This document shows, in pieces, positions 35,724-64,000 of a stretch of DNA of 64,000 bases. Under the pieces are notes generated by a model that saw only the letters and a list, made by a program, of their open reading frames with translations, searched no databases and was not told the origin of the DNA. Position numbers and translations under genes: made by a program. This stretch comes from Ascidia mentula (Eukaryota > Chordata > Ascidiacea > Phlebobranchia > Ascidiidae). The DNA is taken from assembly GCA_947561715.1 (NCBI GenBank), contig OX387201.1, forward strand, positions 253,001-317,000, given 5' to 3'. Position 1 is the first letter of the stretch. Each line of letters starts with the position of its first letter.

Positions 35724-35904
35724 TCTAACAATGACCGATTTCGACCAAACACGAGGAACAATCGACGTGGGATGGGGAGATAAACTGAACTAAACAGTTG
35801 TGCTCTCTTCGATTCTGTGGAAACCCACGAACCTTGTTATGCATCTAATGCAGCTTGGCACTTGCCAGCTCGCCCACTGCCACTGTTTTCGCAAATCACC
35901 ATAA

Positions 35905-35910: not shown

Positions 35911-36078
35911 TTTAAATCCGTTTTATTTGAAGAAACATTTCGGCAACAATTAAACGAACGATGTTTGTGAACAAACAAGCAACAGCACGAATACAATTGT
36001 TACGTCATTATTGCAAACAAAAAAAGCATGCGTAGAATGGAACTTTGTGATCAATATTGCTGATCGTTCACGTGACTG

Positions 36079-36084
36079 AATAAA
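36079..36084 (+). terminator. possible polyadenylation signal of the LCCL-EGF gene
   Basis: A plus-strand AATAAA 355 bp after the LCCL-EGF stop and only about 30 bp from the RAD50 stop codon on the other strand. Confidence 0.4.
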
Positions 36085-36112
36085 CGCGCATGATTGGTCA
36101 AGTGGTCACGCT

Positions 36113-42100: not shown

Positions 42101-44461
42101 AACTTGTATGATTTATTGAAACTTTTAATCAAGTTGTCTCTTGTGACTTTTTGAGCTTCAGCATTTTCAATTTCTTGTTCCAGTTTTCCTGAATGTTAAA
42201 AGTTCGTAAATATTTTCCCTGATGGATTCCTTTTTATTCAAATATAAAATTACTCCTGCTTTTATTTACTTGTATGGTGATTCCCCCCAAAAAATGAATC
42301 TAGACCCTGATAATCTCCAAAAACATTTTTAAATACAACTTTTAAGATAACACGCAAACCTTTTCTGACAGACAACTTGTTTTTCTTTTCATTCAATTCC
42401 GCCATTTTATTTTGGAAAGGTTGAATTTTACTCTCACATTCTCGTTGATTTCTTTCCATGGTCAACAGGGACTTCCCCTGTTCTTTCTGCAATTCCTTCA
42501 ATTGTTGATCAGAACCCTGGTTAAATACGTACAAAAATCAGTCAATAGAAGTTTAATTTCAGGTTAGAAACACAGCAAGTGTTATCAACTTAGCATCTTA
42601 ACTATGTGTATTTATGCACACTGGATGCAACATCTTATTACCGGGTAAAGCTGAATTGGTGGCATCGGTTGCATTAAGTTTGTCAAAAATACAAACCAAA
42701 CGGTGGACAAATTTGTTAAATTACTCACGTTAAAAATGTTCCGAATCCGTTTCCTCAGTTTTTCCTCGTCTTCGACCATCTGCTGCTGACGACTCTTCAT
42801 TGCGCCAAGTTCTCCGTCCATTTTAACAATCTGGGATTGCTTCCTTAAAAGTTCAGTGAGTCTTTCCTGGATCGGTCGCATCTTTTCATTTATTCCCTCT
42901 GAACTCTGTTTGGCCGCTTGTAATTTTCTTTCATAATCCTGCAAAAGACAATTCACATTTTCAGTAACTTTTTAACAGCCCATATTTGTGACTCCAGTAC
43001 ACCAGGAAACAAAAAGAACATTGGCTTTGTACGATGTTTGTTTGTTTGTTCAGCACTGTGCGTTGTAATCAGTTGTGTTGATTTCAACATTTTCACATCA
43101 CTTGTTTCTGTGGTTACAACATAATTGCTACCTCCTTTTCCCGTTGAAGACCCAAAGCTTTCTGGCTGTTCTTCTCCAGATATTCCAACGCCACATTTTC
43201 TTGTTTCATTTCTGATGTTTGGAGTTTTTGAATTTTTCTGATTTCATCCAAAGCTTTTATGTATCTGAAAAAATACAATTTCTTTTCACAATTAATAAAT
43301 TTACCGCAAATTTAACTAAAACTATGTTAAAGAAATGTTGTTTAAATGAAATTACCTTGTGGCAGCAAAAATGTCATCGAACTTTTGTTTAACAGACTTT
43401 CCTTCGCTTAACGGCCAGTTTGATTCTTCTTGGTGACAAAATATCACATTGTCGAGTACAGCTTTTGAGACTCCCAGAGTGCTCACCATTTCACGATTTA
43501 ACTCCGCACATTTCGAAGTAATTGAGACTCTTTCTCCATTCCTAAAATAGAACAACTTAAAACTTTTATAACACAATAATAATTTTTTTATAGTGATTCT
43601 GACCTTTCCTTTGTAATAACTCCATCCAGAGTTTTGAACTGAATATTTTTTGCTTTTTGAATCGCCTGCAACGCTCTCTCGACAAGGATCGTCTGACCAT
43701 GAAGATTTCTACACTTTAAACGAACCTGAAACAAAATTTCTTCAATAAACAATGATTCACATTTTCAGACAATCATTGGGATTTTAACCACAAGAAATGG
43801 TGAAATTTTAACATTTGCACCATTGTCATTTGTGATGGAAAAAAAGATTGTTTATTACTGAGTGTGCAACACCTACCAACCTTAGCTCTGACTTCATTTT
43901 CATGTGCAAGCTTCGGGTCATGAACAAAAGCACCACCTTTTGTGTTTAAAGGATGTTCTCCTGTTGTTGCATACTTCAAGCATTCTATGATGGTCTACAA
44001 ACCATAAACCAATCTTATGAGTGATGAAGCTATTGACTATTCACTCACCTATTTAAACCATTTGCAGTGTTAGATTATCAATGCATTTAACCCCATATTG
44101 TTTGTACAGATGACCTTTACAATTTTTGAACCCCTGTTTTCCAGTAAATTTTATTGTTTAATGCGAGGCGACCTAAATGTTTTGTACAGATATTTCAGTT
44201 TCCAACCATCTTCTTCATTTCATTCCATTGCAAGTTTTCTTTGTTTACCACCATTATAGGAAAAGTGTTGGATTTTAAAACTTAATTTTGCGTTGACTGC
44301 ATTGTTTTTTCTGCACTTTTCTCCTCACCCACCGTTTTCCCAGCTCCGTTTGGGCCAACTAACAATGTCAGAGGATGTTCGAACTTGATGACTTGCTGGT
44401 CTTTGTCGTTTGGGCCAAAAGCCCGAATGCCCATAATTGACATCACATCTATCATAGACAT
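36113..44461 (-). CDS. RAD50: RAD50, ATPase of the MRE11-RAD50-NBS1 DNA-repair complex
   Basis: A many-exon minus-strand gene whose pieces align along vertebrate RAD50. Exon 1 (44333-44461) encodes [16 protein letters not shown] and the Walker A motif GPNGAGKT. An exon at about 43.4-43.5 kb has [20 protein letters not shown], the Q-loop region. The middle is long coiled coil broken by the zinc hook CPLC (40368-40379). The C-terminal ATPase half has the ABC signature GRCSAGQK (36745-36884), Walker [12 protein letters not shown] (36460-36593) and the H-loop [13 protein letters not shown] (36113-36290). Further 3' exons are 37044-37225 and 37288-37416. RAD50 tethers and processes DNA double-strand breaks in the nucleus. 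All catalytic motifs seen are intact. Coiled-coil exons in the middle are recognisable but poorly conserved, and their exact borders were not all set. The last exon converges on the LCCL-EGF gene. Confidence 0.95.
39278..39475. mobile_element. non-autonomous hAT-type MITE, 198 bp
   Basis: Terminal inverted repeats CAGTGTTTCCCAACC and GGTTGGGAATCACTG (14 of 15 matching) bound the element. The flanks CTCTAATC (39270-39277) and CTCTAATA (39476-39483) are an 8-bp target duplication with one difference. Both size and duplication length fit hAT MITEs. It lies in a RAD50 intron and has no coding capacity. Confidence 0.85.
40003..40193. repeat. inverted copy of a RAD50 exon fragment in the neighbouring intron
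   Basis: The 46 bases at 40003-40048, within a RAD50 coding exon, recur in reverse complement at 40148-40193 with two differences. The 99-bp spacer contains the rest of the exon and the intron edge. The two arms could pair in the pre-mRNA and mask the splice site between them. Confidence 0.9.
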
Positions 44462-45401: not shown

Positions 45402-46436
45402 TCAAAATGCACCTCGGCCCCTACCCCCCCTTTCACCTCTACCACGAGGCCCACCACGTTGACCCCGATTAAATCCCCTACCACCACGGGGGCCCCCACC
45501 CCGAGGTCCTGGACCCCCAGGCGGGCCACCACCCCTACCACCACGATTGAATCCCCCAAAGCCCTGGTTAAACCCTCTTCCACCCCCTCTATTGCCGCCC
45601 CTGTCAAATCCACGACCTCTGAAATTGCCACCACCCCCTCCTCCTCCTCCCCGACCTCTAAATCCACCTCTAAACCCCCCGTCCCCAAACTGCTGGAACC
45701 CAAAATCATTGGGCTGCCCAAAATCTCCACAGAATCCTGGGTCATAGTTTTGTATCGGTCCTTTAGGTGGAATTGTAAGCAACAGCTCCAAGATGCTTTT
45801 GATGCAATTGGAAACGACGTCACTGGTGCCTGATATTACACAGATTCTATCCGTTGATCCTGGGCAGCAATCCTGATCCACTTTTATCGTTGCTCCAGTC
45901 TTGGCTCGCAGATCTCTTATTGTCAGACCCTTCAGCCCGATGATGCCTCCAGCCTGGCTCTGGTGGACGAGCATTCTGAGGCTGAACTTTGGGGCTTCTT
46001 CACCTTTCTGAAACCTCCCACCTTCCGTGATCACTGGAAGAATTTGAACCACAATTTTTCCACAGTTTTCGATGGAAGCGCTAACCTGCATCACACGTTC
46101 ATCCGATTCATTGTCATGAACATGAATTTGTGCTTTATAATCTTCTCGCATCTGCTTAATTACACTTCCTGCTCTGCCAATTATGCCACCAGCAGTTCTT
46201 GAAGGAATTAAGCATCTAAAATCAACATTTTCATCAAGATTTCTTGATCGTTTTGCTGGAGTGAAACCATCACCTCCCTGCTGTGCTTGGTCATAGGATC
46301 TTTTGGCCCCAACATCTGGTTGAAACTCCTGCTTGTAGTTATTTTGATCTTGATTTTCGGCTCCATTTCCACCATTTGCCGAGTAATCAGCTTCTTGTTG
46401 GTCATAACCTTCGTATTCTGCTTGGTAGTCAGCCAT
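45402..46436 (-). CDS. HNRNPK: hnRNP K-like RNA-binding protein with two KH domains and RGG tail, intronless
   Basis: A single 344-codon exon. After an acidic, glutamine-rich N terminus comes KRSRNLDENVDFR, close to the vertebrate hnRNP K KRSRNTDEMVELR. KH1 follows at about residues 70-135 (GxxG loop GRAG) and KH2 at about 150-220 (GxxG loop GLKG; HQSQAGGIIGLKG matches vertebrate HQSLAGGIIGVKG). PIQNYDPGF matches the start of the hnRNP K linker. The last 100 residues are almost wholly Gly/Arg (RGG boxes). Vertebrate hnRNP K has a third KH domain at its C terminus; none is present here. The family binds poly(C) RNA and single-stranded DNA in transcription, splicing and translation. Lack of introns among intron-rich neighbours suggests a retroposed origin. 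The start context (catcATGG) is good. Confidence 0.9.
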   Translation of the reverse strand: MADYQAEYEGYDQQEADYSANGGNGAENQDQNNYKQEFQPDVGAKRSYDQAQQGGDGFTPAKRSRNLDENVDFRCLIPSRTAGGIIGRAGSVIKQMREDYKAQIHVHDNESDERVMQVSASIENCGKIVVQILPVITEGGRFQKGEEAPKFSLRMLVHQSQAGGIIGLKGLTIRDLRAKTGATIKVDQDCCPGSTDRICVISGTSDVVSNCIKSILELLLTIPPKGPIQNYDPGFCGDFGQPNDFGFQQFGDGGFRGGFRGRGGGGGGGGNFRGRGFDRGGNRGGGRGFNQGFGGFNRGGRGGGPPGGPGPRGGGPRGGRGFNRGQRGGPRGRGERGGRGRGAF

Positions 46437-47581
46437 GATGCTGATTTGTACAAATAAACTTTATTTATTCAGACACGACTCCCTATATACACTGCATAAC
46501 ACAAATATGATGAAATAAAACAAATGAAAACCCGCAACTTATTCAGTTCCACAAACCATTCCCTTCCCGCGGCATCTTGTCTTGTTCCTATTTTTGGCAA
46601 AAAATATCCCATGCGCCAGAGGGTTTTTCAAGTCTATTATGGGATCGGATTATTGTTAATTCGTTGCCTATTCCTCACCGCTGTGGAGACCCCGACGGCC
46701 TATAATCGGCACCAATTCTATCCATTTCAGATTAAACTGTTCTAACTTAAGTAATAACGGACAATAGAATAACTATCTGCATCGATAATTCTTCCAAAAA
46801 AGGCGATTCTTTTCTACAGCTCTTTCATGATTAATTTTCCTGAGTGAAATGCAAAAAGAACGCCTAAAAGATAAATATTCAAAGTAAAGCTCAAAACAAG
46901 AACTTTAAAAACTATTTACTTAAGATTTTGTTAAATATCTTTCCATGTGATTGCTCAAACAAAGTCTGGTGACAAAGAACTTATTTGTCAGACAATTTAC
47001 ACAGAATCGTGTTGTATTTTGTGACAATGCGTCGTCAGGTTCTAAATGTATGAAGTATTCTCGAAGTTTTCTTGCCATGTTTCATAGAGAACAAAAAACG
47101 AATTGTGACGTAATACACCCCGTACTTAAATCACAGCAGAAGCAGATTTTTTGAACTACTCTTGACGTCATCAAAAAGGGGTAATCCAAGGTCAGGTCGA
47201 CTAGGTTGAAAACCTTTGAATTAAAACCTTTATGAAACTACTCATGCAGAACGCGTAGGTGCACAAAAACGCGGGCAATTAGCAGACGCGTGGATCACGG
47301 CAAGAATACATGCGGCCAACCTGCATGGCATAGAACGAGCTCTGACGAATCTGTGGGCATTTACTTGCATACCAGTGCTGGTGGAAGGTGTTACGCTAGA
47401 ATTGAAACCATGGCGGGAAATTTGAAGTCAAGTTTGTGAGTGAATTTAACTCGCGTTTCTACGTCATAAAGTTGTTTAGGTGGACTGGATATTTGCCATA
47501 AGATATGTGCCTTGCGTGCGTAATGGTTAATTTGCCCTTACTTACAGCTGGTCGAGATAAACTGGAGGCGTCTGGAGGAAA

Positions 47582-48545: not shown

Positions 48546-49028
48546 TCACGCACTATGTGTGCTAATTGCCACAAGGTAACAACGAACCACGTCTGCTGTT
48601 TTTTCTTCCGGTGCATTTCCGCTTAATGAATAAACTTTGTTGACAAAACCACTTGGAAGATCACTTGCAGTTTCCGCTGGAAAATGAAAGCTATTTTGTT
48701 AAACAACAAACACAAGGGATTACCGTAGCGCTGGAATTATTCCTACCGACCTATTTTAGAAGCCGTGCCTTTGTTTTTGTACAAGTAGACCGAAATTCCA
48801 CCAACAAGTAGAACCGCACATACGACTCCAATCACTATTCCAGCAATTATCCCCGCGTTGCTCTGTTTGTGTTCTGAGATGACGTAAGAGGAAGTAAATT
48901 AATTGTTTATAAATATATTGAAATAGTTTCTCGTCGTCGCTTTGATGTGAAATGTTTAAATCCGTACCTTCAGGGGGCTTCGGTGTTGTGTAAAATATAT
49001 TATTCCCGTTGTCATCCGTTCCCAAAAC
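48546..49028 (-). other. linker, membrane helix and cytoplasmic tail of the mosaic receptor
   Basis: After CTLD 9 a Pro/Thr linker (48965-49028) leads to an exon with [18 protein letters not shown] followed by a positive YLYKNKG stop-transfer sequence (48760-48878). The last exon encodes a tail with VNKVYSLSG, a tyrosine that might act in sorting or signalling. This orients the lectin modules outside the cell (type I). Confidence 0.8.
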
Positions 49029-52000
49029 TGAAACACAATTAACAAAATAATTCAGCGCAAGTAACAGTTATTGAAGGTGATGTCGGGTATGACCTCAACG
49101 AACAATGACATTCTATTATGCGGTGCTATCGAGTTTGTATTCTTCGCTATTAGGGATTAAAGTCATTATATAATGTATAAAGACTGTGTAAACAACACAC
49201 ACAACTTACTCTTCGGTGTGAGACAAACGTATCCGTGTTCCTCAAGACAGTTGATGTCATTCCACCTTCCGCTTCCTCCGTACATCTCCACACAATCCTC
49301 GTTATCTTCTCCTGCGTTGTTCGGTTCTCCCTCGCTCCAGTAAGTGAAGGAAACCGGTCTCCCGTCCACCCACGACCATCCTCCTGCCATTGTTTTACAT
49401 GGTTTTGAACCGTGGGATAAAAAAAAAATAACGAGACGACCTTGTATAGGTTTTTAATCTGATGCTAAATGTTTGCGGCAAGATGTCTGTTTAACCAATT
49501 GCAACAAAAAGCAATGACGTAGATGTTTCTGCCTTTGTGTCTGCCAAACATTTTTAAACAATATTCCAAACATTGCATAGCGACCTTGTCCGTTGCTCCT
49601 GAGTCCGACCCAGAGAGTTTCAGTTTCATTATACCAACTCAACATCCATTCCAACTCGTGACGTGACGTAAAACTTGCAAGGTGACCTCCGTATGACGTG
49701 CATTCGTATTCGGCGTCAGGCCAACTTTTTGGACTGGTGGAAAGTACAAAGAAAACATTGTAAAGTTTAAGATGATGGAAATTCACATCCATTAAATGTT
49801 TGGCCATAGAAATCTTATTCCACAAGGAAACATATTTACTTGCCATGATTCAGTGAACATCAATATTTTAAGTAAGTTTCGACGAAGACAAATCAGCAAA
49901 AATATTTAATCAATTTTAGTTTAAAGTTCTTCATTGTGACAAGCTTTACTCGCATTTACAATCCCATGTTCCATCCAACTTACTCATTTTGACCGTTGAG
50001 AGTTACGAAAGCCTTACAGCAGAATCCACCGTATTCCTCCCAAGTATAATCTGGACAAGATCCTTCTATTGTACCGGGGGTGGGCGGTATCTCCTCTGTG
50101 GGCAAAAAAAATTACATAAGAACCAACAGAAGTCTTTCACCGTTTAAGTTTTCATGGGATTTTTCATTTAACATTAGGATTACTCGGTTATTCTTCGAAG
50201 ATTTGGGCGGTATCTCATATATGTTGGTATGAACGCATGTAAGTCTTTGATGAATCATATGTAAGTTGGATCCTAATATCACATTTCTCTTTGCGTCATT
50301 TTCTATCTCGCAAATTAGGAAACAAACAACCACTAAAATACCCGTCATTTACTCCAATGTTCCCCACAACGTTTTTACCAAACAAATTACTTATTTTTTG
50401 GCACAGAAGCGAAATTGGAATAATTTCCTGTCACCAAAGTAATCGCACCCTTTGCTATTTGTGACGTTATTTTACCCTTCCAGGACGTGTGGTTACAAAT
50501 TATTCAAAGATTTTCAATAACTCCCAAACCTGTTGATGTTTTGCATACGGAAGGATACGCTTTACTGCACTCGGCCGTGAGCCATTCCGATCCGAACACA
50601 GAGTCGACGTTGATCACACAAGACTTGGAAATGTCAGAAGTTGGTTGGTTTTCTCCCCAGTTTGAAATCCAGACCGGCCATCCGTCCACCCACACCCAGT
50701 CCTGAGTGTCCTGTATGTTAATGTGTTGTGTAAGATACCGAACATAGTTTGCTCTGCAGATGTTGTTGTTTTATTGCTAGGTTTCGTCGCAGTAAAGTTC
50801 CCACTTCATTGCAACCTTCGCCAGATCGTGTTGAGTTACTTCAAAGCCAATCTTAACTTTTGTAAGCAACAGACAATAATGTTTACGTGAAGCTGCTGCA
50901 GGCACTATTTCAACCTAATCTTTCGTTGTGGGTTCGAACCCCACCGGAACCGGAATATTCCAGTAATTTATTTCATCTCCTAAATGTTCGTCCAACCTGG
51001 TTTTGCTTCATTCCGATCCAAGCTGTTTGTCCCCTCAGATAACTTGTGATGAAATGTTGGTCGAACATCGTCTGCAAACTCGCCAAGTCTCCGTTCAGAT
51101 TCCGACAGTTTTGCTGCGCGTCGTCGAAACTTCTCGGAGTCGAGTCCAGGAAGTAACAGACATAGTTGTCTTGTATTGTGTTGTACTGCGAAAAAACCCA
51201 GTTAGCAAGTGAGATGTTGCTTTCAAATCAAAGCTTGGTTCATCTAACCAGTTTGAAAAATTAAAAAGGTGCCACCAAATACTTTAACAGAGTCACAAAA
51301 TCTTGCATGACAGAATCGCCGCTAAACCACAGAAAGGAATGAACAATGAAAAATATATTTTTTCAATAAATCAACCTTTAGTGAAAACTTCACTGTTAAT
51401 TTTTGTTGACAAAGGAATTAAGTTCCATTACTTTAATACAACTGGCAACAATGAATTTACCTGCACCCAACCACTTGGACATTTCGTGTTCTGGTTGAGT
51501 TCAAGTCCTGGCGGAGTCTGTGGATCTTTGCTCATGGAGCAAATGAAGGGAGTGACAGTATCGCAATGCTTGTCGTTCCAACGCCCAGCTAATGCTTCAG
51601 CGTGGTAAAGTTCTCCACAATTCTCTTCACCATTGTGATGGTTCGGTTCGCCTGGATAATGAGATGACGATACAGGGATTATGAAATGTTGATCAATTTA
51701 TCGAGGAATTCCAATGCTTGTTTGGTGTCGATTTGATGTCAAACCTTCAATCGCCCAAAACCAAATCCACTTTCACGTGTTCTCGCGACAGGTTTTGTGA
51801 CGTCAGAGGTACACATTAATCATTATCCAAGGTTGTTTGCAATATTCTTAATATTGATCGAAATTATTAGGTTTATTAACTTATTCCTCCGCTACTGCAG
51901 CACGTGTACCTTCATTCCAGTTAGTGTAAGTCACTTCGTCCCCATTCGCCCACGTGTACAATCCCCACTGGGTGTCGCTAATACCGATCCAGAGGTTGTG

Positions 52001-55000
52001 GTAAGCCCGGATTGATTGAGCCGTGATGAAAGCTGAGAAGATTTAACGTAACTAAAGACCGTGCTGTGATGTCACTACTGATGGTTGTATCTTTCGATCA
52101 AAAATAAGCTATGACGTAAACACTTTTAACAGTTCTGTATGTTCGAAAAGAAACATTCCTTTTCACGAAAAGAAAGTCAAAAAGTTTTTGGATATTTGGT
52201 TAAAACCTAAAATAAGCTTTTAACTAATTAATCAGAATTGCTCTTCTGGCACTTAGTTTCTAAAGTGTTTATTGGAAACCAACGTTTCGTCTGCCATCCG
52301 GCGAGACTTCTTCAGGGTTATGTCAACAGTAAAGCATCACGCACATAAAAGAAGTCTCGCCGGATGGCAGACGAAACGTTGGTTTCCAATAAACACTTTA
52401 GAAACTAAGTGCCAGAAGAGCAATTCTGATTAATTAGTATGCCTGGCAACAAAAATAGCAGTATATAAGCTTTTAACATTAGTTAAAACCGATTTAAACT
52501 CCGTATTTTTACAAACATTTTTCTGATCGAATTTCTTGTTCTTACCGTTTTCATATTTATCGTGAATCGCTGTCAAAGCTCCTCCAACGCTCTTGCAATA
52601 TTCCACTGCACCTCGCCACGTGGCGGCGCACTCGGGTTTATCGGTAACAGCAGGATCGCAAACGTTAATCTCCCCGTGTATCTGATAGCAGTAGTTTGTG
52701 TACATCAACCAGTTTGCCGGGCAACCGCCTGCCGGAAATATCGGGAAATTAAAAAGTTTGACCAGACATTTGGGAGCCATTTATTTTCAACATCGGATTC
52801 TCCGAAGTTCTCCGAACAATAAATTTCAAAAAGTTGCAATTTAGTTCAATTTAACACAAAAAGCAACGCATGCAAATCCAGCGTTTCCTGTGAATGGAGA
52901 AAATATAGAACATTTTACCAACAGAAATACAAACATCTCACCAGGCCAGGGATCAGTGGGTCCGGGTGGGTTCGGTGGAGCCCCCAAATACTTCTTGCAA
53001 ATAAACCCGGATCTTTTCAACCCGCAATTATCGTCGTTCCATCTTCCAGAATTCATTAAAGTCGTCACGCATTGTTCGATTCCAACTGCATCGTTCGGTT
53101 CGCCTGTGCAAGATTTTGTGGCAATTTCTGCTTTCTGGTCATGAAAACTTCAGCAGTCTAAGTTATGGTTAAAACGACAATTTCCAGTGAAGTTATCCTT
53201 GTGACTTACTATGTACAACAAAAATGTTTGAGGAAAATGTAATATTCCCTCTTTTAAAAACATTACGATTTAGTTGTTTAGTTTCTCTCTATTTTAAAAA
53301 CAAGGCTCCCGATCATAGGCGTCGATTTTTTAATGATTTGTAAAATATTAAGGGTGACTTTCCAGGTTTTTGAAATACGCAAAAAACATTTCGTCGATCG
53401 TATCGCCCTAAACATAACGCAAACAACGCGAATTTCGTTTCGTGTCACTTTGTTGCGTAACAATCCACGAGATACTTGTGTTTGTCCTGATTGTGACGGT
53501 AATAATACAGGTCATTTGAAACTAGCTTAACGCATAGTATAATGTGTGTGGTTTTTCTGACAATCATTTTCAATTTAAACAATACCCAGGGGTGACAGCA
53601 CATGCATTGTCACCCCTGTTTGTTTGTGAGGGGTGGCATGTCACCCCAGTCACCCCTATGCTCCCAGTTGAATCCTAATATATTTATCACTGCAGCAGAG
53701 TGATATTTGAATATCATTACATATTTATCCAATGCAGAATTACAAATGAACATGAGATGAAAAAAACGCCCCGATAGTAATTCAGTTCAATAATAAATTC
53801 ACAAACAGAATCAAAACCTTCACTCCAGTTTACGAAATCCACCGGAGTTCCATCTGTCCACTCATATTGTCCATTGACTCCTCCCATTTCACGAAGTCCG
53901 ATCCAGAATCGATCAACCCTCGGCATTTGCTGCGTTTTACAAATTTATTCCTGACTCACTGCGGTTACCATGACAACGCATTAATTTAAAGCAAGGTTTA
54001 CGGTTAACACGTAAGGCCGAGTTGTAAATGAGCGTTCGGAATTTACAACTAAATGCTGTTGAATTGTCGAAACGGTGGAACCCGATTAAAGCAAGTTATT
54101 ACAAGCCTTACTTTTATCTGGTTGGTGATGAAAGCACTTTCTGCGATGGTGTGAATTGAAGCCAATTCCCCTCCCGTTGTCTGACAAGTCTGTTCCAATA
54201 TAACAATATTTATAAGTTATGCTGATAATTTACGTAATAAAATATATCAATATCAAAACGTTTGTTCTTGTTTGAATTTACACCAATTTTTCTCAATAAA
54301 ATGCGTTGATAGTTTGAATGTTAAAATATTTCCAACTAAACATGTGAAATCACAGAATACCCTCTGAGCAGTGTGGACGTCAACAGGCAGCATATCGTTA
54401 AACAAGTAACACATCCCTTCGTATTCAATCCATGTCCCGTCATTGCTACTCCCGCAAGCTGTGTTGGGTTTGCCAGTTGGAGGGTTTGTTGGCTCAATGA
54501 CGTCAATCCCTTTCGGTCGCCTGCAGATCCAATCCAAAGCCTAAAGATAGATTTTGTCAATCCACATGTTGCAGAATGAAAGTAATGTAATATATTCGCT
54601 TCTACGATACCGCATTGTTTATTATGATTGGTTAAAAATGAAGTTATGTAATTCTGTTTTAAACAGAAAAAACCAAAGCTAATATGCTGGACATTGAGCG
54701 GACTTTTCGAACACTGCTGCGTTTATCATATGTGGTAACTTAGGATGTCTGCTCTGCTCAATGACCTAACTTTGGTTTTTCCGTTGAAATTGTTGTTTAT
54801 TTTTCTATATAATATATATTAGTCCATCGTATTGTTTCCAATCCTTCAACAAAATGATCTGCACTCAATCACGACAAACCTGATGGCAGTTCAGATTGTC
54901 CCACATCCCCGACCCCAGGGAGGGTTCAAACTTCATCGCGACGCAAGTATTGTCCTGTGTGGAGGAGGGGGATCCCGGGACCCAGTTCACGAACTCGACA

Positions 55001-58000
55001 GGGAAGCCATCCGACCATGACCAACCCACGTTGTCTCTGCGCAAAATCAAACTTTCAACCCCAGTCGAAGGATGATAAATATGCTGAGTAATGTGACGTT
55101 GGAAGGATAAGAAATATGCAGAGTAATGTGACGTCGAATTGACAAGGGGAATCCCTACTTGATATTTTGCAGTTGCTGCCAATAACTTGATATAATTGGT
55201 TTAGGTTTGTTTAAAAACAAAATTCAATATTGTTAACAGGCGACTTCTTACAATCACTGATGGAAATTAAACTGGGTCGTGAAAGTTTGCAAGCACGTGG
55301 TTTCTTAACACGAATAAAATTGTTAACAAACCTTGTGTTGAGTCCGATCCACACGGAAGTACTCAGGACTCCGATTCCACTCAATTCTCCGTTCAAATAT
55401 TCCTGTTCGTCTTTGCTGTGAATCGAAACCAAATCCCCGCCTTCAGTCAAACACTGAACACAAAGTATTTGGAATCACAAACGCGATCGAAATATCGAAG
55501 CTTTTCATCCAGACCTGATGTCTCGCGTTCTCCCAACCCTGCTTTTTGTCCCATTCTCCCGCTGCTTCGGGCGCGTAAACTTTATAACAGAAACCACTCG
55601 ATACATCCGGGGTCGACCAATCCCATTTACAACCGCCAGATGGCGCTGGTGTGGCTGAGAAATATTAGTTAAGTCCAGTTAGCAAATAACTCTGCAATTA
55701 GTTCAAAGTTGGTTATTTAAATCCTAAAATCAAAGGATGCCATTTAATATCATTGCGAAAGTTTTGTCAACTTGGAAAATACTTAAGTTTTCACACAGTA
55801 ACAAGTCTGAACGCATGGGGGTGAACTCACTAACTGGAGGCGCCGTCCATCCGTCTCTCGGTCTCTCACATATCGAGTAAGCTTGCTTCTCACACCTGTG
55901 ACTGTACCACATTCCTTGACCGAACTGACCACCGTAAAACACAGTGCATTCGCCTAAATCGATATCTGAAAACAGCAACCACATTAGTGACGTCATCGCA
56001 CGACGTAAATTACGTCACTTCGGTCTTACTTGGGTTCCCAATCCCCCAGTTATCATACGTCACTGGGTCTCCACTTTCCCATTCCCAGGACACCCCAGTA
56101 TCGGTTGTGACGTGAGCATGGAGTCCAATCCACCATCTCCAGTCTTCTGATCCGATTATTGTGTGGAGGAAACTCTGCACGTACCTGAATCAAAACACGG
56201 AAGGTTCAGGGTTCGAGTCCCGGCCCGGGTGTGGCATAAGTTATTTTATGGAGATGAATGTATTTTAACAAACTTATTTGGGAAGTTGGTTATTCAGGTT
56301 TGATCAACAGTGACACCTTAGAAATTTTGTCGTCAGGATCACCAGAAAAACATTCATTCAAATATTTTCCAACTCATTTTAAACAATTACTGGTTCTGAA
56401 CATGGACGTTGAATCCTCCCAAACCTTCACAGTATTCCTCAGAATCACCCTCAGAACGCAGAACCCTCTGGAAGAGGTAACAAGTCCCCTCGTAAGCCGA
56501 CCAACCTATGGAGGAAAGAGACCATGAACCAACAGACGATCGAGAAACTTTATTTTTCCAGAGCTAAATCTGGTTTAAATTCGTCAAATCATTCGGTGAC
56601 AAGATCGCCCACAAAACAATGATTTCAGAATCTACTGTGTTGCACAACAACAACAACAACAACATTTTGATAATGCAAGAAGTTATGTGAAGGCTCTGGT
56701 TCACCACGTTGAGGTTTAAATATGAATCATATCCTGTGTTTGTTTGGTCTGAAGCGATCGAACCGAGCAAAACTATGGTGGATTGTCTAATAATAATCTC
56801 AGAATAATTGAAAACAGTATTTTTTTTGCAGTTTGTCGAAACTGACCATCAGGGCATCCGGCAGGGGGCGTCGGAGATACCGTCTCATCCGTTGAATAAT
56901 AATCCTTGTATTTCTTGCAGACGTAACTCTGAAAAAGTTTGAAATATTGTTTGATTTTACCTTGAAAAAACTTGGCAACGTGAAGTTACATCAACCCAAG
57001 AATATTTATATGATGCGATTAATTTATTGAAACCGAAATCGCCATTTTTTACTCACGTTAATGCCGTCGCAGAGATAGTCGTCCCACATTTGTGACGCTT
57101 GGTAGAAATCAACGCAGTTCTCCATCTTACCTTCGTAATTATCCGGAGAGCCGAGATCCCAGTTTGTGTAAAGAACCTTCGCAAAATATCATAAGTCAAA
57201 CAGTTTGTTGCAAATGCTGCCAGGTATATTACTCAATAATTCAAAGCTTCTCTGGCAAGAAAACAACTTGTCCGGATGAAGGTCTATTGAACAACGACCG
57301 AAATGTCGTCCAAACAAGTAGTTTTCCTACCAGAGGAGCTTTGAATCATAAATGGAATTTATATTTGTGATTTTTTTTTTGCTTCTTCCACCCAGTGTTT
57401 TGTTGAACATGAAGAAAAAACTAAAACGCCACCTACCGGATCCCCGTCGCTCCACTCAAACTCGTTGTAGGATCTCAGATCGTTGAGGCCAATCCACCAG
57501 TACGGATAATCCTTCAAGTTGATTTGCTGGGCGAGGAAATCTTGCTCAACTTTGTTCCGGATCGAGACGAGATGAGCTCCCATCTCCACGCACTTCGCTT
57601 CTGCCACAGCCCACGACGCTCTCTCCTCTATAAAGTGGGAGGGAACATTTAAAGGGAGAAGAATTATCTTAAACTTTCGTTTGTTCAACTTTGCTGTCTT
57701 ACTCACCAGAGAAGAAGTAGCAGAAGCTGCTGAACGGAGTCCAACCTGCTTGACAACTTTTCTCGTTACCGGAGAATGCGAACGCGACGGGGTAATATCT
57801 GAAATGGGAAGAACAGATTTTATTTACAAATATTGGATAACATCTGCGTTGTATCCGACTCTGTCAGTTACACCAAAAATTGAAAACAAACACACAAGGT
57901 CAAAAATTATTATCAGTAAAATTAAACCTTCTCAAAGATACAGTACCACTACCGACTCCTTACGTTTCATCAAATGAAGTGATGCCGTTTCTAACCGTGC

Positions 58001-61000
58001 CTTTATAAGAACTCTGAGCAGTTTTTCTCACAATTGTGACCTGGCCTCCGAAGCGGTCAAGCATGACTCCGGCATGTACAGCCGCGTTGCAAATCTGTGA
58101 GCTCTGGAAAATTTCGTATCCAGTGTTGGGATTGATAGCGAATGGACGTCCAACACTGTCCTACTGTTATCTACCACCACCACCACTTGTTATTCCACTA
58201 TGTGAGCAATAAGCCTTTGATTGATGTCAGCAGATTTATTTGAAAGCTGTTTTAGCTTTAGTGCTGCAAGCGTCATCAGTTATTACACTTACAGTTAATT
58301 TATCAGAACAAAAGAGAATTCCCACCATGAGGTCAGATTGATAGAATTTAACAAGGAAGATTATTATGTCAACGTGAACTTCGCATATATTTCAGCTCCA
58401 ACCTACCCCAGTGTAAATATCCGTACCATACACGACAGGAATCCCACTCAAAACCGAACACAACCCTGGACATTCTGCCTGGACCACTGTGACGTCATCA
58501 GCACCGTCAGCTGCCAGTATGACGTCACCCAGTTCTGTGCAAGCCAGCTCACCTGAAGTGGAAAGAGGGAAGTCACCTCGCGAAAAAATGATTAACAAAC
58601 CAAGCCGATGTTGAGGTAAAAACTACAAACGGTGAAACACGATCAATATTATAATTTCTACCAAAATCCACCAAGGTGACTTTTGAAATCAGTCTTAAGT
58701 TCTAAAGTAAGCCACAACTTAGACATCTTCATATTAGACTCACGTAGAGGATTACATCCTGTGATTTCCAACCTCATTCCAATCATATCTCCCACCCAAC
58801 TCTGAGGTTGGATTCGAATCCCAGCGGTGAAAACGTGTTCGGCCAAAACCACTCTCACCGGGGTTTGTTGGTCGCTGTTCCCGGTGAAATTCATCTGCGA
58901 ATATTTCACAGTTAGATGAAGACATGATTTATTTACATTTATTTATCAAACATCTAAACCATGGACCATGATATTAAAAAATCCGACCAATAAATTACAA
59001 CTTTGTAATCCTGCAAACGAATTCGAACAAAATGTAAACACCGAACAAAGCGTGACAAACATTGTACAACAAAAACATCGAAAATAAGCAAAATGAATGA
59101 ATCAGAGTGAATCTTACCAGGATATTACCGATATTGGTGTAATCAGTCCACTCTTGAAGCGTTGGGTCGTTCGCGAATGCAACAGTGAAGCTTGTGACGT
59201 AACGATTGGCGTCGTTTGCTCCCTGTACGATGACCCCGGTAACCCGGATGTTGGATGGGAAGGTCACTTGCATGTAAGCTCCTGCAAGTAGGGATAGAGT
59301 GCTGGCATGAAACTTGAAAACTGCATTTGAAGAATTATCTTGGAATATTTCCTCAGTCCACCGAATACTGAAATATACAGATGTGAGGAAAATTATTAAA
59401 AATCGAATTTCTTAAAGTTGGCAAAATATTTCTATATTTTCTGTCTCGACCAAACTCCTTTCTAAATCTTCTGTTGAAAATAAAACAGTTGACTTCAGGT
59501 TGGACAATAAACACCACCTTTTCCCTCATCTGTTGCCCAACTTCTCGGTCCGTTCAACCTCCCGTCTACCCCCATGTGTTGGTTGTCAATATAAGTTGAC
59601 TCAGTGAGTTGCGAGTCGGCCACGGTTCCATTCTCAACTCCCAGAGCATTAAAACATGCTGCACAATAACAGAGTCGGGGTTATCATGGATCAAATGCAC
59701 TTGTGGTAAATAATCGCTTGACAAACTTGGTTTAAATTTATATATGTGAAATCTACTCGCAAATAGGGGTAAAAATACGTAAAATGGGTTATCGGTAAAT
59801 GGGGAGTTACACACGAGCCGCTGCTACTCACGTAATTAAATTCCAAGGAGTATTACGTAAAGCAATTTACTGAAAGAATATGTCTACAGTTTCGAGTCAT
59901 TAACCAAAACCCACTCACATTTTTGTTCACATGAGTAAATGACGTTCAGGTATTTGTAGATTCCACTGCAAGGGTCTCCAAATACGTCATTACTTGCGGT
60001 CAGAGTGCACGATTCCATGTTGTTGCATTTCTGCGATACGATATCGAGGGAATCGACTGAGTGGCAACCTCCTATAGGAACTCCTTGGTCGCTGCTACAC
60101 CTGCAATCACGAGCAAAGATGAACAACGTAGTCAGGTTTTTGTTGTGAGCCTTAGAATTTCACCATCAAGCGATATCTGATACTAACGTTTCAATGTTGG
60201 ATCTTCCATAGGAAGCGTGATGGATGACGATCTGCATTCCGGGGCAACCGAGGGTGTAAGTCTCCCCCTCGCATATGTTGATCACGTACTCGTCTGCAGT
60301 TACAAGTTAACTGTAAGTAGCTTACAACTGACAACAGTTAACCGACAATAACCTACAACAACATACAGTTAACTTACAATTTACAACAACATACAGTTAA
60401 CTTACAATTTACAGCAACATACAGTTAAGGTTATTTGGCAACTGCGCATTCGCAGCTAGATATTGATGGTGTTTGCCTTAGAACTAAACCAATGCCTGTG
60501 ATCTGTTTGTAGAAAATGAACCGCAAACGATCAATACAAGAGGTAAGCTTAGGATGAGCGATGAACAAAACTTCATGTCAATGTGACCCCTTTGTGGAAC
60601 TCCATTAAAAAGTTCTGTTTTATCACAGGTCACCCGTGACGTCAGTTAAACTTTAAATATCTTACTTTCATCAATCGGTGTGGGTAAAACGATATTTGCG
60701 AACTTCTTGCAAACCATTCCCCTCTCGTTGGCGCAGTTGATGTCATTCCACTTGGCGTTGGAAGTGTAAGCTTCGACACAATGCTCGTTGCTCTCGGCTC
60801 CGTTAGGTTCGCCTGGAACGCAATGACTGAATATTGTGAGGGCGCCATTAGGAATCATGTTGTTGATGTTTGTTTACTTATCAGATGTAATTAACCAAGA
60901 TTTCGATCAAATCTGACCACACTCACCATCCTCCCAGTACAGATAGTTGAAAGGCTGACCGTTCGACCATTTCCAACCAGAGTTTTCGTCGTTTCTGTTC

Positions 61001-64000
61001 GCTCCGATCCACAGAGCATGCGTCATCACCAACGTCACTAGCTGTCCGCTTACGTACGACTGCTCCGCTCTGTATAAATGACGTCAGGAAAATAAAGTTG
61101 GTGAAACTATTTATGATGAGATTATCTTCCAATAAACTTTGAGCAATTCTAAAGAAATTATCAAATTTCTAATTCCTTTGTAGATTTCATGTTGGCGGAG
61201 AATTCGGAGATTGAAGCAACTTCAAAAATATTAAGAACTAACTTTGAATTAACACTGAGAAGATCTCCTCCCATTTCCATGCAGTAATCCCTCGCATGTT
61301 GCCAAGTACGCAGGGAGTAATCGTTGAAATGATAGCAATATATTTCACCGTGAGGATCGAACTGCCAGTCTTTGCCACACCTCGGGTCGTACTGATCTAC
61401 ACGAAAACTTTGGTTAACTCGTTTTCTTATCGCCGCTGGAAGGCGTAGGCGAAAGAAAATAGAGATACACTTGTTATAGTTGGCTACTGATTCATGTAGC
61501 TTGATGACGCGAAACAAACAGATGCAGAGATTGAAGCCAAACACATTTATATTTCCGTTACGTTCACCTTTTTTATAGAAACACCACTTGACGCCACTCA
61601 TTGAGTTGTCCCAGCAACATCCCTTATTCACACACTCAGCCGGTGTTATTCCTCCGTACCCACAATCTAAACGTTCCGTAGGAGTCACCGACGTACAAGC
61701 TGTACACAAGAAGTTACGTCAGTCGTTTTCTCTACGGCAGTGGAATATCAGTTTTAGTTTTCACCTTCGTTAGGTGACGGCGTGGCAAGATCCCCGCCAT
61801 CTATCGTGCATCCCATAACTTCCAACCTCAAACTTGGGTACAGATTGTAGTCGTACGGATAAATACGGATATAGGATGCCAGGACTGGCGCGTTAAACTT
61901 ATTCGCAACAGCCGTGTTGGTGTCTGAGTTTCCAGAGAAAGTCTGAAAAGTTATTTGTTGTTTTTTACTCGACGTTATGAAGTCGTCAATCACTTTTGTG
62001 TCCCGGTCTTGTTAGAAGGTCATTTCAAGGTTAATCTAACCTGAGTGCTACCCGAACGACCTTTGACGAACTGGAAATTGGTTCCGTCGGTCGAGTAGGA
62101 AACCTGGTAACTTTTCACGAACTCGTTCACGTCTGAAGGGCGCCCCTGTGTGGCCACTCCTGACACGGTTCGTTCTGGAACCAATTTAACCTGGAGCCAC
62201 TCTGTTCCCGCATCTGGGACTGTCCCTGTTGTAGAGGGCAAAACACCGGTGAGTTTAGCTTAGTCGATTTTAAGAATTCGTTTAAAGATAACAAGACGGC
62301 ATTTGTTAAGTTTTATTGGTTACAAAACCCGGGTATACTGGACTTGCATTCGAGTCAATTGATTTCCAAACTTCTTTCAGAACAAAAACGTTTTCGTTAA
62401 CCTCTTGCTTAGATGCTCAGTTTAATTTTTATTCTAAAGAGGTGAAAGCTAAGGCTGCCACAAGTCTGCTGGTTAAGATTTTAAAACACCCGGTTCAGTG
62501 CTGGGTAATTTGATGTAAAACTGTTCAAGTCTGCGTAGTTGCATTGGGAAGCTCCATGGCTTTCCTCTTCAGAATTATCTACTCCAAGTTACCTAAGTAA
62601 AGCGATCTTTCGTAGCTGGCGAAAGTTTTGAAAATTTTGAACGTAATATTGCGAGATTCCATCGGTAAAAATCCTGAACTCCACCCACCTTTATGAAAAC
62701 ACCAAACAACGCCGGAGACGGAATCATCGAAACAACATCCTCGGTCCAGACAAGGTTGTTCCCCTCCGCCTCCACAGTCGAGTCGTTGATCGGTCGGAAT
62801 CGCCGGACAATCTGAAAGGATTCCAAGAGTTGTCTTGCTGTAAAGGCCACTTGGTGTTGTAAGAATGCAGGAAACATAAAGACTTTGGTTGAGACCTTTT
62901 AGGTCGAAACAGTGGCCATCTGTCTGCAGCTTATACACAAATAAAGACTTTGGTTTCTTACAAAATTAATATTGCGGTTTTATGGATTTAATTAAATATG
63001 CACCAAAATCGGTCAGAATCAAATTCTTCAACGAACTTAAAATCCTCACGGGAATTTGTGTTCGATTTAAAAATACTCGTCTAAATTCATCCAAGCGCTA
63101 AACACCAGAGTCGTTTCCATGACCACCCACCAGCGTAGTTAAGTTGTGGTGACCAAGCCCCAACCGCTGTGGCGTCGTCCACGTTGTTGAGCCGACCCTC
63201 AGTTGCTTCGTATCCTGGACCATAGGACGAGGAGGAAGAAATCTCCTGATCCAAAATCCTTCCATCTTCCATCCCAAGAGCTTGCCAGCAATCTGCCGAA
63301 CACGTCAGTGAAGCGGTTTAAATAATTCAAGTGAAAACATCCCATCAATATTGTGACGTCAAAGTCAAACAGGTGTTACGACATAAGACCTATGCAGTGG
63401 GGCATCCCTAGGTACGCGAAGTTGCATTATAAAAAAACCCTTTACTGGGAAACCTCTGGAATAATAAGAAGGGAAGCTCACCAATCTTCTGCTTCTTGCA
63501 AATGTATGAGTACTGATTTCCGCACGCGTTGTCGTCCCACTTGAAGTTGGCGTCTTTCCAATACCGGAGGCACGCCGCGTTCCCGTTCGGTTCGCCTTGG
63601 TACCAATCAGTGAAGGTCTGTGGAAATGTTTAGAAATGTGTGGAAATGTGTGGAAATGTGTGGAAATGTGTGAAAATGTGTGGAAATGTGTGGAAATGTG
63701 TGGAAATGTGTGGAAATGTAAGAGAAACTTAACAGGGGAAACCCTAATATTGTGATAAAAATTTCTGCAAATTTTAAATAAAACTGTTTGAAACAAGTTG
63801 GTGGGGCTGGGAGTTGACACAAATATTTTAATTGTTTCGTTTGTTCGCGCATAAAATATTTGATTTAGCATCAGAGATGAAACGTAACAAACAGAAACTC
63901 CTAAATTGATACGTTGTGTCTTTCCACTATAGGGACTTACCCAGGGTGTTTTGTCAGTCCACACCCATACATTGTTGCTCACGTGATCATTTCCACCAAT
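48546..64000 (-). CDS. giant mosaic transmembrane lectin receptor (CTLD, F5/8C, trefoil, SUEL lectin, LCCL), 5' end outside window
   Basis: A many-exon minus-strand gene still open at the right edge. In transcript order: partial CTLD 1 (64000-63482), F5/8C domain A (63292-61765) with a trefoil exon in its first intron, trefoil 2 (61699-61568), CTLD 2, SUEL lectin, F5/8C B, LCCL, CTLDs 3-9, a 20-residue linker, a membrane helix and a cytoplasmic tail of about 50 residues ending at 48546. Junctions checked between neighbouring modules are in phase (for example NYAG|TVPDAG, NPLR|ELACTE, FDE|TYYPVAF) and no internal signal peptide or stop was found, so I treat it as one gene. The layout recalls the mannose receptor family, but the other modules are not in that family. 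Binding of sugars and surface ligands, and a role in immunity, self-recognition or egg-sperm contact, is inference. Splitting into two genes cannot be ruled out without transcripts. Confidence 0.85.
49210..50100 (-). other. CTLD 9 of the mosaic receptor
   Basis: [28 protein letters not shown], then [13 protein letters not shown] and RWNDINC. The EPN and WND motifs predict calcium-dependent mannose-type sugar binding. Confidence 0.85.
50525..51190 (-). other. CTLD 8 of the mosaic receptor, degenerate sugar site
   Basis: [47 protein letters not shown] and SVCKT give the fold, but neither EPN/QPD nor WND is present. Confidence 0.8.
50931..50941 (+). repeat. isolated tRNA B-box-like sequence
   Basis: GGTTCGAACCC followed by CACCGGAACC matches a Pol III B box and could be the remnant of a tRNA-derived SINE. 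No A box or tRNA fold was found. A second B-box-like string lies at 56210-56220. Confidence 0.3.
51455..52735 (-). other. CTLD 7 of the mosaic receptor
   Basis: Three exons: [18 protein letters not shown] with an extra cysteine-bearing loop (52545-52730), [16 protein letters not shown] (about 51905-52035), and [12 protein letters not shown] with RWNDKHC (51455-51650). EPN and WND are intact. A foldback element sits in its first intron. Confidence 0.85.
52223..52438. mobile_element. foldback element with perfect 90-bp inverted repeats
   Basis: The arms 52223-52312 and 52349-52438 are exact reverse complements, separated by 36 bp. The element lies in a mosaic-receptor intron and has no coding capacity. 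Perfect identity implies a young insertion or recent homogenisation. The inner part of the left arm, on the minus strand, reads CTGAAGAAGTCT...AGACGAAAC, loosely like a hammerhead core. Confidence 0.9.
52930..54545 (-). other. CTLD 6 of the mosaic receptor
   Basis: Four exons: [11 protein letters not shown] (54360-54545), [13 protein letters not shown] (about 54115-54200), [11 protein letters not shown] (53815-53930) and [12 protein letters not shown] with RWNDDNC (52940-53105). EPN and WND motifs are intact. Confidence 0.85.
53314..53660. mobile_element. possible DNA transposon relic
   Basis: CATAGG at the left and CCTATG at the right are inverted ends, flanked by CTCCCGAT and CTCCCAGT, a possible decayed 8-bp target duplication. 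It sits in a mosaic-receptor intron. The right part carries internal GGGGTGAC/GTCACCCC inverted repeats. Confidence 0.35.
54880..55660 (-). other. CTLD 5 of the mosaic receptor
   Basis: [53 protein letters not shown] and MWDNLNCHQ. The sugar motif reads SPS rather than EPN, so canonical mannose binding is unlikely. Confidence 0.8.
55830..56515 (-). other. CTLD 4 of the mosaic receptor
   Basis: [40 protein letters not shown], then [16 protein letters not shown]. The EPN and WND positions are changed (NPSK, WYS), so it is probably structural. Confidence 0.8.
56845..57795 (-). other. CTLD 3 of the mosaic receptor
   Basis: The first exon continues directly out of the LCCL domain ([15 protein letters not shown]). 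Next are [39 protein letters not shown], and [12 protein letters not shown] with MWDDYLC. The sugar motif is SPD with WDD. Confidence 0.85.
57236..57354. repeat. imperfect palindromic element
   Basis: ATTCAAAGCTTCTCTGGCAA... at the left pairs with ...TACCAGAGGAGCTTTGAAT at the right over about 33 bp with a handful of mismatches, in a receptor intron. The centre holds GGATGAAGGTC...GACCGAAA, a hairpin next to hammerhead-like core words. Confidence 0.75.
57968..58553 (-). other. LCCL domain of the mosaic receptor
   Basis: Two exons: [20 protein letters not shown] (about 58405-58553), then [21 protein letters not shown] and [16 protein letters not shown], closing with [11 protein letters not shown] in the next exon. 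The conserved cysteines and the NGI and F-F-S-G ending fit LCCL. Confidence 0.9.
58741..59670 (-). other. F5/8C (discoidin) domain B of the mosaic receptor
   Basis: Three exons: [19 protein letters not shown] with [10 protein letters not shown], then [20 protein letters not shown] with FTVAFAND, then [14 protein letters not shown] with MRLEITGC. A complete domain. Confidence 0.9.
59920..60300 (-). other. SUEL-type galactose/rhamnose-binding lectin domain of the mosaic receptor
   Basis: Exon one: [26 protein letters not shown]. Exon two: [20 protein letters not shown], then [20 protein letters not shown] and LNVIYSC. The YGR and DPC-G-YKYL motifs that contact sugar in this family are both present. 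Confidence 0.9.
60340..60425. repeat. short tandem repeat
   Basis: ACAACATACAGTTAACTTAC followed by AATTTAC is repeated two to three times in a receptor intron. Confidence 0.8.
60663..61396 (-). other. CTLD 2 of the mosaic receptor
   Basis: Three exons: [33 protein letters not shown] (61244-61396); [20 protein letters not shown] (about 60925-61079); [12 protein letters not shown] with KWNDINC (60660-60815). EPN and WND intact. Confidence 0.88.
61568..61699 (-). other. trefoil (P-type) domain 2 of the mosaic receptor
   Basis: [37 protein letters not shown] shows the six-cysteine trefoil pattern. It is a single phase-1 to phase-1 exon. Confidence 0.9.
62689..62811 (-). other. trefoil exon lying inside the intron of F5/8C domain A
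   Basis: An acceptor and a donor (AAAG|GTGGGT) bound a 123-nt exon encoding [15 protein letters not shown]...[17 protein letters not shown], a complete trefoil module. It is symmetric (phase 1-1), so it can be included or skipped without changing frame. Inclusion would insert it into the F5/8C fold. Confidence 0.85.
62883..62933 (+). repeat. decayed hammerhead-repeat copy
   Basis: Stem II GACCTTTTAGGTC, GAAA, ACAG...CTGT, GTC and TGCAGCT survive; the first core segment is altered (GGTTGA). It lies antisense in the receptor intron next to the nested trefoil exon. Confidence 0.6.
63482..64000 (-). other. CTLD 1 of the mosaic receptor (partial, cut by window edge)
   Basis: Two exons: [14 protein letters not shown] (63941-64000), then [20 protein letters not shown] and [17 protein letters not shown] (63482-63617). 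EPN is intact; the WND site reads WDD. Confidence 0.85.
63621..63720. repeat. 10-bp minisatellite next to a 3' splice site
   Basis: Ten units of TGGAAATGTG with a few variants fill 63621-63720 and begin at the edge of the acceptor of the 63482-63617 exon. On the transcribed strand they form a CATTTCCACA tract directly upstream of the AG. Confidence 0.92.

Follow-up and report, generated by a model that had tools for sequence, protein, structure and literature searches.

Receptors of the mannose receptor family (MRC1, MRC2, PLA2R, DEC-205, and FcRY) carry up to ten CTLDs, an N-terminal cysteine-rich (ricin-B type) domain, an FN2 domain preceding the CTLDs, and a tail with an FxNxxY motif. DCBLD1 and DCBLD2 consist of CUB, LCCL, and F5/8C domains and a membrane helix, and PKD1-like proteins with CTLD or SUEL domains possess REJ, GPS, and PLAT domains together with a multipass region. 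A further plan was described in Fugu rubripes as DEC205-FUSE, a protein of approximately 2000 aa with five N-terminal CTLDs, LCCL and FA58C domains in the middle, and then seven (v.3 assembly) or ten (v.2) CTLDs (Zelensky and Gready, 2004; PMC514892). It was a prediction without cDNA support, with small introns and no human orthologue, and the same source gives eight CTLDs as the minimum for the mannose receptor family (PMC514892). In ascidians, a macrophage mannose receptor 1-like protein of Ciona robusta (XP_026691626.1) appeared as a CLECT-domain receptor in an immune-stimulation study (PMC10433773), and it is likened to the present protein in that respect only, as the relevant passages of that study give no domain plan for comparison. 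In the open-licence literature, neither later work on DEC205-FUSE (PMC10967652, on antibody vectors, looks unrelated by its title) nor a protein with the set of CTLD, SUEL, trefoil, F5/8C, and LCCL modules was found.

The window analyzed here was a stretch of 64,000 nucleotides of Ascidia mentula DNA (C69:253001-317000, in a genome of 195.8 Mb and 79 contigs), and positions given without a contig are window coordinates. The focal gene was located on the minus strand, from 69,882, beyond the window end on the same contig, to 47,542. Its model comprised 54 exons and a predicted protein of 2,473 aa, with an open frame throughout and GT-AG borders at all 53 introns. Pfam matches to CTLD, SUEL, F5/8C, trefoil, and LCCL were all present when the three minus-strand frames were scanned, and the assembled protein contained 12 stretches of Lectin_C (E 7.6e-224), two F5/8C, two trefoil, one SUEL (E 3.1e-20), and one LCCL (E 1.1e-16). 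A hydropathy scan found a single membrane-like helix near the C-terminus. The initial annotation, which had read a single mosaic lectin receptor with these modules on one strand, at least nine CTLDs, in-phase junctions, and one membrane helix, was thus borne out on each of these points; its extent (48546..64000) was too short at both ends. CTLD5-12 and the final two exons of CTLD4 lie within the window, whereas the signal exon, CTLD1-3, and the first CTLD4 exon lie upstream of its end (64,404-69,882). The CTLD frames extend to approximately 69.4 kb, and no Pfam family was found at the cut-off on the minus strand from 72,001 to 81,500. On balance, we favor the reading that a single gene at this locus encodes a type I membrane receptor and belongs to a tunicate family with at least four members on the DEC205-FUSE plan, with modules shuffled in as phase 1-1 units and a mode of action like that of the mannose-receptor group.

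The predicted order, all on the minus strand, was signal peptide, CTLD1-4, F5/8a with a trefoil inside, a second trefoil, CTLD5, SUEL, F5/8b, LCCL, CTLD6-12, membrane helix, and short tail. The signal exon (69882-69837) and CTLD4 exon 1 (64568-64404) are situated beyond the window, and CTLD4 exons 2 and 3 (64023-63941, reaching 23 bases past the window end, and 63617-63482) encode EPN and WDD. The N-terminal exon of F5/8a (63131..63292, phase 1-1) is followed by trefoil 1 (62689..62811), a single phase 1-1 exon nested in F5/8a, and then by the other two F5/8a exons (62225-62041 and 61942-61765). Trefoil 2 (61568..61699) is also one phase 1-1 exon. CTLD5 (60666..61396; three exons) has EPN and WND, and the SUEL or L-rhamnose-binding lectin module (59919..60293; two exons, phase 1-1) has YGR and FGDPC..KYL. 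F5/8b is encoded by three exons (59658-59518, 59281-59118, and 58894-58744) and LCCL by two (57964..58552). CTLD6 (56847..57798; four exons) contains SPD and WDD, its last exon including the first Cys of CTLD7 (55831..56505; three exons). CTLD8 (54540..55654) ends in exon 54540-54361; neither it, CTLD7, nor CTLD11 (50530..51185) shows a canonical sugar motif. EPN and WND are present in CTLD9 (52942..54540; four exons), CTLD10 (51461..52728; three exons, the last beginning CTLD11), and CTLD12 (49210..50095; three exons). The gene ends with a stalk exon (49027-48968), the exon of the single membrane helix (48873-48751), a cytoplasmic tail exon (48676-48588) with GFVNKVYSL, which fits FxNxxY, and a terminal exon (47571-47542) encoding TPPVYLDQL and the stop.

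Gene models were obtained with a home-made gene finder and hand curation against a paralogue that was found by comparing minus-strand ORFs with other loci; the choice of exons was ours. The initial settings, under which each locus was split into 107-200 exons, most of them tiny, were discarded, and a raised intron penalty gave 57-66. Exons were judged by whether they were missing in the other copy or fitted the domain pattern poorly. From the final 60 focal exons, 70508-70487, 68181-68155, and 59010-58999 were removed along with three that belong to the downstream gene (46440, 46033, and 45563), 58894-58859 and 58801-58744 were merged, the last exon was reset to the stop, and the signal exon was added, resulting in 54. 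For the paralogue (66 exons), the six preceding 668493 were replaced by a signal exon, those at 669042, 672282, 677648, 680879, 689214, and 689308 were removed, 678615 and 678708 were merged, three were shortened (677451, 680408, and 685802), and one was lengthened (to 676972), again resulting in 54. The search for signal exons covered the upstream flanks. The focal one was selected among seven upstream candidates by its phase-1 donor and by a position and length like those of the paralogue's, and that of the paralogue among four starting sites by its donor and like position; the donors were GTGAGT (focal) and GTAAGT (paralogue), both phase 1. The hydrophobic stretch of the focal signal exon is weak, and the signal peptide was graded probable. 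A retrained finder predicted 61 exons and reproduced 50 of the 54 focal ones exactly, which is no independent test because it was trained on these exons.

Downstream on the minus strand, frames at 45535-46440 resembled an hnRNP K-type KH-domain gene when read by eye, and long coiled-coil-like frames at 36000-43700 resembled an SMC-type protein by eye. A repetitive stretch at 34941-35790 contained several open frames on both strands.

The paralogue is an intact, collinear gene on the plus strand of the same contig (C69:668-690 kb), approximately 345 kb from the focal gene. It has 54 exons encoding 2,486 aa, its phase string is identical to that of the focal gene, and GT-AG borders are present at each of the 106 introns in the two copies. 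The two proteins were identical at 2,044 of 2,473 aligned residues, and the overall dN of 0.11 and dS of 0.62 would speak for constraint, despite saturated dS in many exons. Two relatives were identified as neighbors on another contig: C73A (C73:11119328-11139653; 2,507 aa) and C73B (C73:11141264-11164811; 2,496 aa). Each has, after curation, 55 GT-AG exons in a single open frame (five exons removed and four added in C73A, five removed and two added in C73B), a signal peptide, 12 CTLDs by our own profile, and one helix. Pfam, which was applied to the assembled focal and C73B proteins, found 12 CTLDs, two F5/8C, kringle, LCCL, FN2, and trefoil in C73B; the CTLDs of C73A were counted with our own profile. 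Beside this pair, at C73:11110203-11115475, repeated similar frames looked sulfotransferase-like by eye.

C73A and C73B were identical at 1,323 of 2,444 positions, and the focal protein and C73A at 786 of 2,079. The best CTLD match fell at the same position for 12/12 CTLDs between C73A and C73B, for 9/12 between C73A and the focal protein (misses 1, 6, and 8), and for 8/12 between C73B and the focal protein (misses 1, 2, 7, and 8). Apart from its own paralogue, focal F5/8a scored highest with the F5/8a domains of the C73 pair (207 and 211; others 164 or less), yet it precedes CTLD5 in the C69 pair and follows it there, and a change of order involving F5/8a and CTLD5 is therefore probable from these alignments. 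For F5/8b, the comparison gave no resolved partner. In all four genes, seven CTLDs follow the central modules, and a single helix lies near the C-terminus by hydropathy alone, as in the mannose receptor family. These data indicate a putative family of at least four genes with a core of five CTLDs, F5/8C, LCCL, seven CTLDs, and a membrane helix, and the focal gene is not a one-off.

Searches for this kind of LCCL exon found no fifth member among the matches listed. In a single-protein LCCL search with 86 matches listed (150 of 396 candidates scored), three began at query position 42-43, all of them known members; since this threshold left out even the LCCL of the focal gene, four members are a lower bound. 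Five places among the matches listed have an LCCL exon that begins at profile position 41-45; one of them, C2:18.23 Mb, was rejected as a member, as no match collinear with the focal exons was obtained there. Several other loci were noted in the genome. A very large CTLD gene cluster (C1:22.4-27.63 Mb) held approximately 105 of the 150 CTLD matches listed (150 of 770 candidates scored). Long tandem arrays of LCCL exons with near-equal scores and a near-regular spacing of approximately 0.5-1.1 kb, suggesting genes with dozens of LCCL repeats, were found at C72:5124980-5182581 and C69:1890517-1912016, and SUEL lectin exons were clustered at C73:900-953 kb, C2:3.78-4.17 Mb, and C71:2.205-2.214 Mb. 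At C73:4914576-4959016, trefoil and LCCL matches approximately 10 kb apart occurred twice on the same strand, possibly another duplicated mosaic gene. Two GH6 matches were found on the same strand as frames with a cellulose-synthase QxxRW motif and less than 4 kb downstream of them. Such a pairing marks tunicates, and the genome looks like that of a tunicate in this respect.

Compared with the mannose receptor family, the focal protein has a similar arrangement of tandem CTLDs, a single C-terminal helix, and a short tail. It differs in having 12 CTLDs, interrupted by other modules, versus 8-10, and in its additional F5/8C, LCCL, SUEL, and trefoil modules. At E 0.01, Pfam matched no cysteine-rich (ricin-B type) domain in either the focal protein or C73B; FN2 was not found in the focal protein and is located inside CTLD7 in C73A and C73B, not before the CTLDs. 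A plain mannose-receptor reading was rejected, as the expected domains were missing from the Pfam results for the focal protein. DCBLD1 and DCBLD2 share with it an LCCL adjoining F5/8C in a single-pass protein, but the focal protein has twelve CTLDs with F5/8C ahead of LCCL, and no CUB match was obtained by Pfam at E 0.01. A polycystin (PKD1)-like reading was likewise rejected, with REJ, GPS, and PLAT absent from the focal protein at E 0.01 and only one helix. DEC205-FUSE, as far as it is described (PMC514892), resembles the tunicate proteins in its large size, its five CTLDs ahead of an LCCL/F5/8C center (present in the focal gene and C73B), and its small introns; the seven trailing CTLDs of the tunicate genes fit v.3 only. 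Its five leading CTLDs correspond to a contiguous set in C73A and C73B, whereas focal CTLD5 is split from CTLD1-4 by F5/8a and the trefoils. The passages describing it name one FA58C and mention no SUEL, trefoil, kringle, FN2, or membrane helix, and the kinship is proposed purely from the plan described there. The initial annotation knew of no named receptor with this combination. That holds for the exact SUEL/trefoil set in the open-licence literature, but the core plan had been named from Fugu in 2004 (PMC514892). The focal architecture thus elaborates on a previously predicted plan, to which the present analysis adds the gene family, the nested modules, and the probable conversion.

The nesting was seen in both C69 copies, where the trefoil 1 exon sits between F5/8a exons 1 and 2 with phase-1 introns on both sides. 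When trefoil 1 was left out, the F5/8a profile score was 88.2 bits versus 84.8 bits with it, and the match began at position 2 versus 25. By alignment with factor VIII, the break falls in the loop directly after 'PQVN', which we take to be a membrane-binding spike. As the trefoil 1 exon lies within a near-identical tract, its presence in both copies is no independent sign of age. In the C73 pair, a kringle is nested in F5/8b and an FN2 in CTLD7 after the long-loop segment. Phase 1 at both ends was found for trefoil 1, trefoil 2, SUEL, F5/8b, CTLD5, kringle, and FN2. Most likely, trefoil, SUEL, kringle, and FN2 would have been gained as phase 1-1 units through exon shuffling, and one trefoil, the kringle, and FN2 would have landed inside other domains.

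Divergence between the C69 copies was distributed unevenly. Of the 54 exons, 23 had a dS below 0.3, 7 had 0.3-1, and 12 exceeded 1, while no value could be computed for the remaining 12. Most introns flanked by low-dS exons aligned (70-100% over the matched part), with the exception of introns 15, 21, and 50, which failed to align, and 22, 26, 45, and 47-49, which aligned in short pieces; between high-dS exons there was no match except pieces of the last intron. Of 852 four-fold sites, 607 were identical, and a two-state path with parameters set by us divided them into seven tracts (453/475 sites identical) and eight other stretches, some short (154/377); CTLD1-4, LCCL, and CTLD6 were outside the near-identical tracts. 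Since near-identical and saturated stretches alternate, the pattern points to gene conversion. A recent partial duplication or an assembly error could also leave near-identical tracts, and it is favored by the copies being known from a single assembly, by the short separators between some tracts (3, 17, 20, and 22 sites), and by the poorly aligning introns beside near-identical exons listed above. We regard this as unlikely, since the alternating stretches fall at collinear positions, the number of runs among the sites (224) lies below the lowest value in 10,000 shuffles (302), and the longest identical run is 82 against a shuffle maximum of 39, whereas in the C73 pair, the negative control for the longest-run test, nothing was seen (164/501 identical; longest run of 6 versus a mean of 5.2 and a maximum of 11 in shuffles). 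Joining of two or three adjacent genes into one is rated very improbable, even though ab initio models are prone to fusion and our own finder fused the downstream gene and both C73 genes. The paralogue retains all 54 exons, their phases, and their order, none of the four proteins has an internal membrane helix, and a real boundary, that of the C73 pair, consists of a helix, a stop, 1.6 kb, and a new signal peptide. The collinear paralogue and the two relatives argue strongly against two genes.

Half of the focal CTLDs carry sugar motifs: EPN with WND or WDD in CTLD4, 5, 9, 10, and 12, and QPD with WND in CTLD1; the other six lack such a motif. We take the EPN pairing to be mannose-type and the QPD pairing to be galactose-type. 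Three of the 12 CTLDs were searched against PDB, and the top single-domain matches were collectin placenta 1 (CTLD1), MRC1 (CTLD5), and MRC2 (CTLD12); scores summed over chains with several CTLDs are inflated, as the domain repeats. The SUEL domain aligns to solved rhamnose-binding lectins and keeps YGR and DPC..KYL as they do. The tails contain FVNKVY in the focal protein and IVNKLY in the paralogue, and FDNPVV and FDNPMA, without Tyr, in C73A and C73B; FxNxxY is presumably the uptake motif of mannose receptor tails. The LCCL domain of mouse akhirin was reported to bind bacteria (PMC12839204). Judging by the motifs, the protein would most likely act as an endocytic or adhesive glycan receptor. 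The architecture, phases, paralogy, constraint, and sugar-site motifs are read in the sequence; sugar binding, ligands, endocytosis, and tissue are predictions. Recognition of microbes, self, or gametes, which the initial annotation put forward, is a candidate role. Such a receptor would bind glycans on cells or microbes in a multivalent, partly Ca2+-dependent manner, and uptake would follow via the short tail motif.

The main rival to an uptake receptor is an adhesion protein or an organizer of matrix in epithelium, tunic, or gametes. F5/8C, trefoil, SUEL, and LCCL domains are found in adhesion, mucus, and matrix proteins, which together with the missing sugar motifs in half of the CTLDs and the tyrosine-less C73 tails leaves this role a serious though rather unlikely candidate. 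Against it, [FI]xNxxY is kept in both C69 copies though the helix and tail exons have saturated dS, and the tandem-CTLD plan is like that of endocytic receptors. A multivalent glycan receptor with uptake appears the most economical reading.

A bolder proposal, which we consider doubtful, is an ancient chordate receptor family with swappable recognition loops. Phase-1 introns in the loop of the discoidin domain and in the long loop of the CTLD would have taken in a whole trefoil, kringle, or FN2 as a second fold on the binding face, and conversion would keep parts of two copies alike while leaving CTLD1-4, LCCL, and CTLD6 free to diverge. If true, this would amount to modular recognition encoded in the germline, and skipping of the nested exons could yield two forms.

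Apart from this proposal, the family shows domains inserted into ligand-binding loops of two unrelated folds via phase-1 introns, a clear case for how exon shuffling creates binding surfaces. With near-identical and diverged tracts alternating between the two C69 copies, the speed at which conversion proceeds in a receptor would become measurable. Moreover, the Fugu prediction of 2004 could otherwise have been a fusion artefact, and four open tunicate models with five CTLDs, F5/8C/LCCL, and seven CTLDs provide independent evidence that the predicted plan is real. If the kinship holds, this plan predates the tunicate-vertebrate split.
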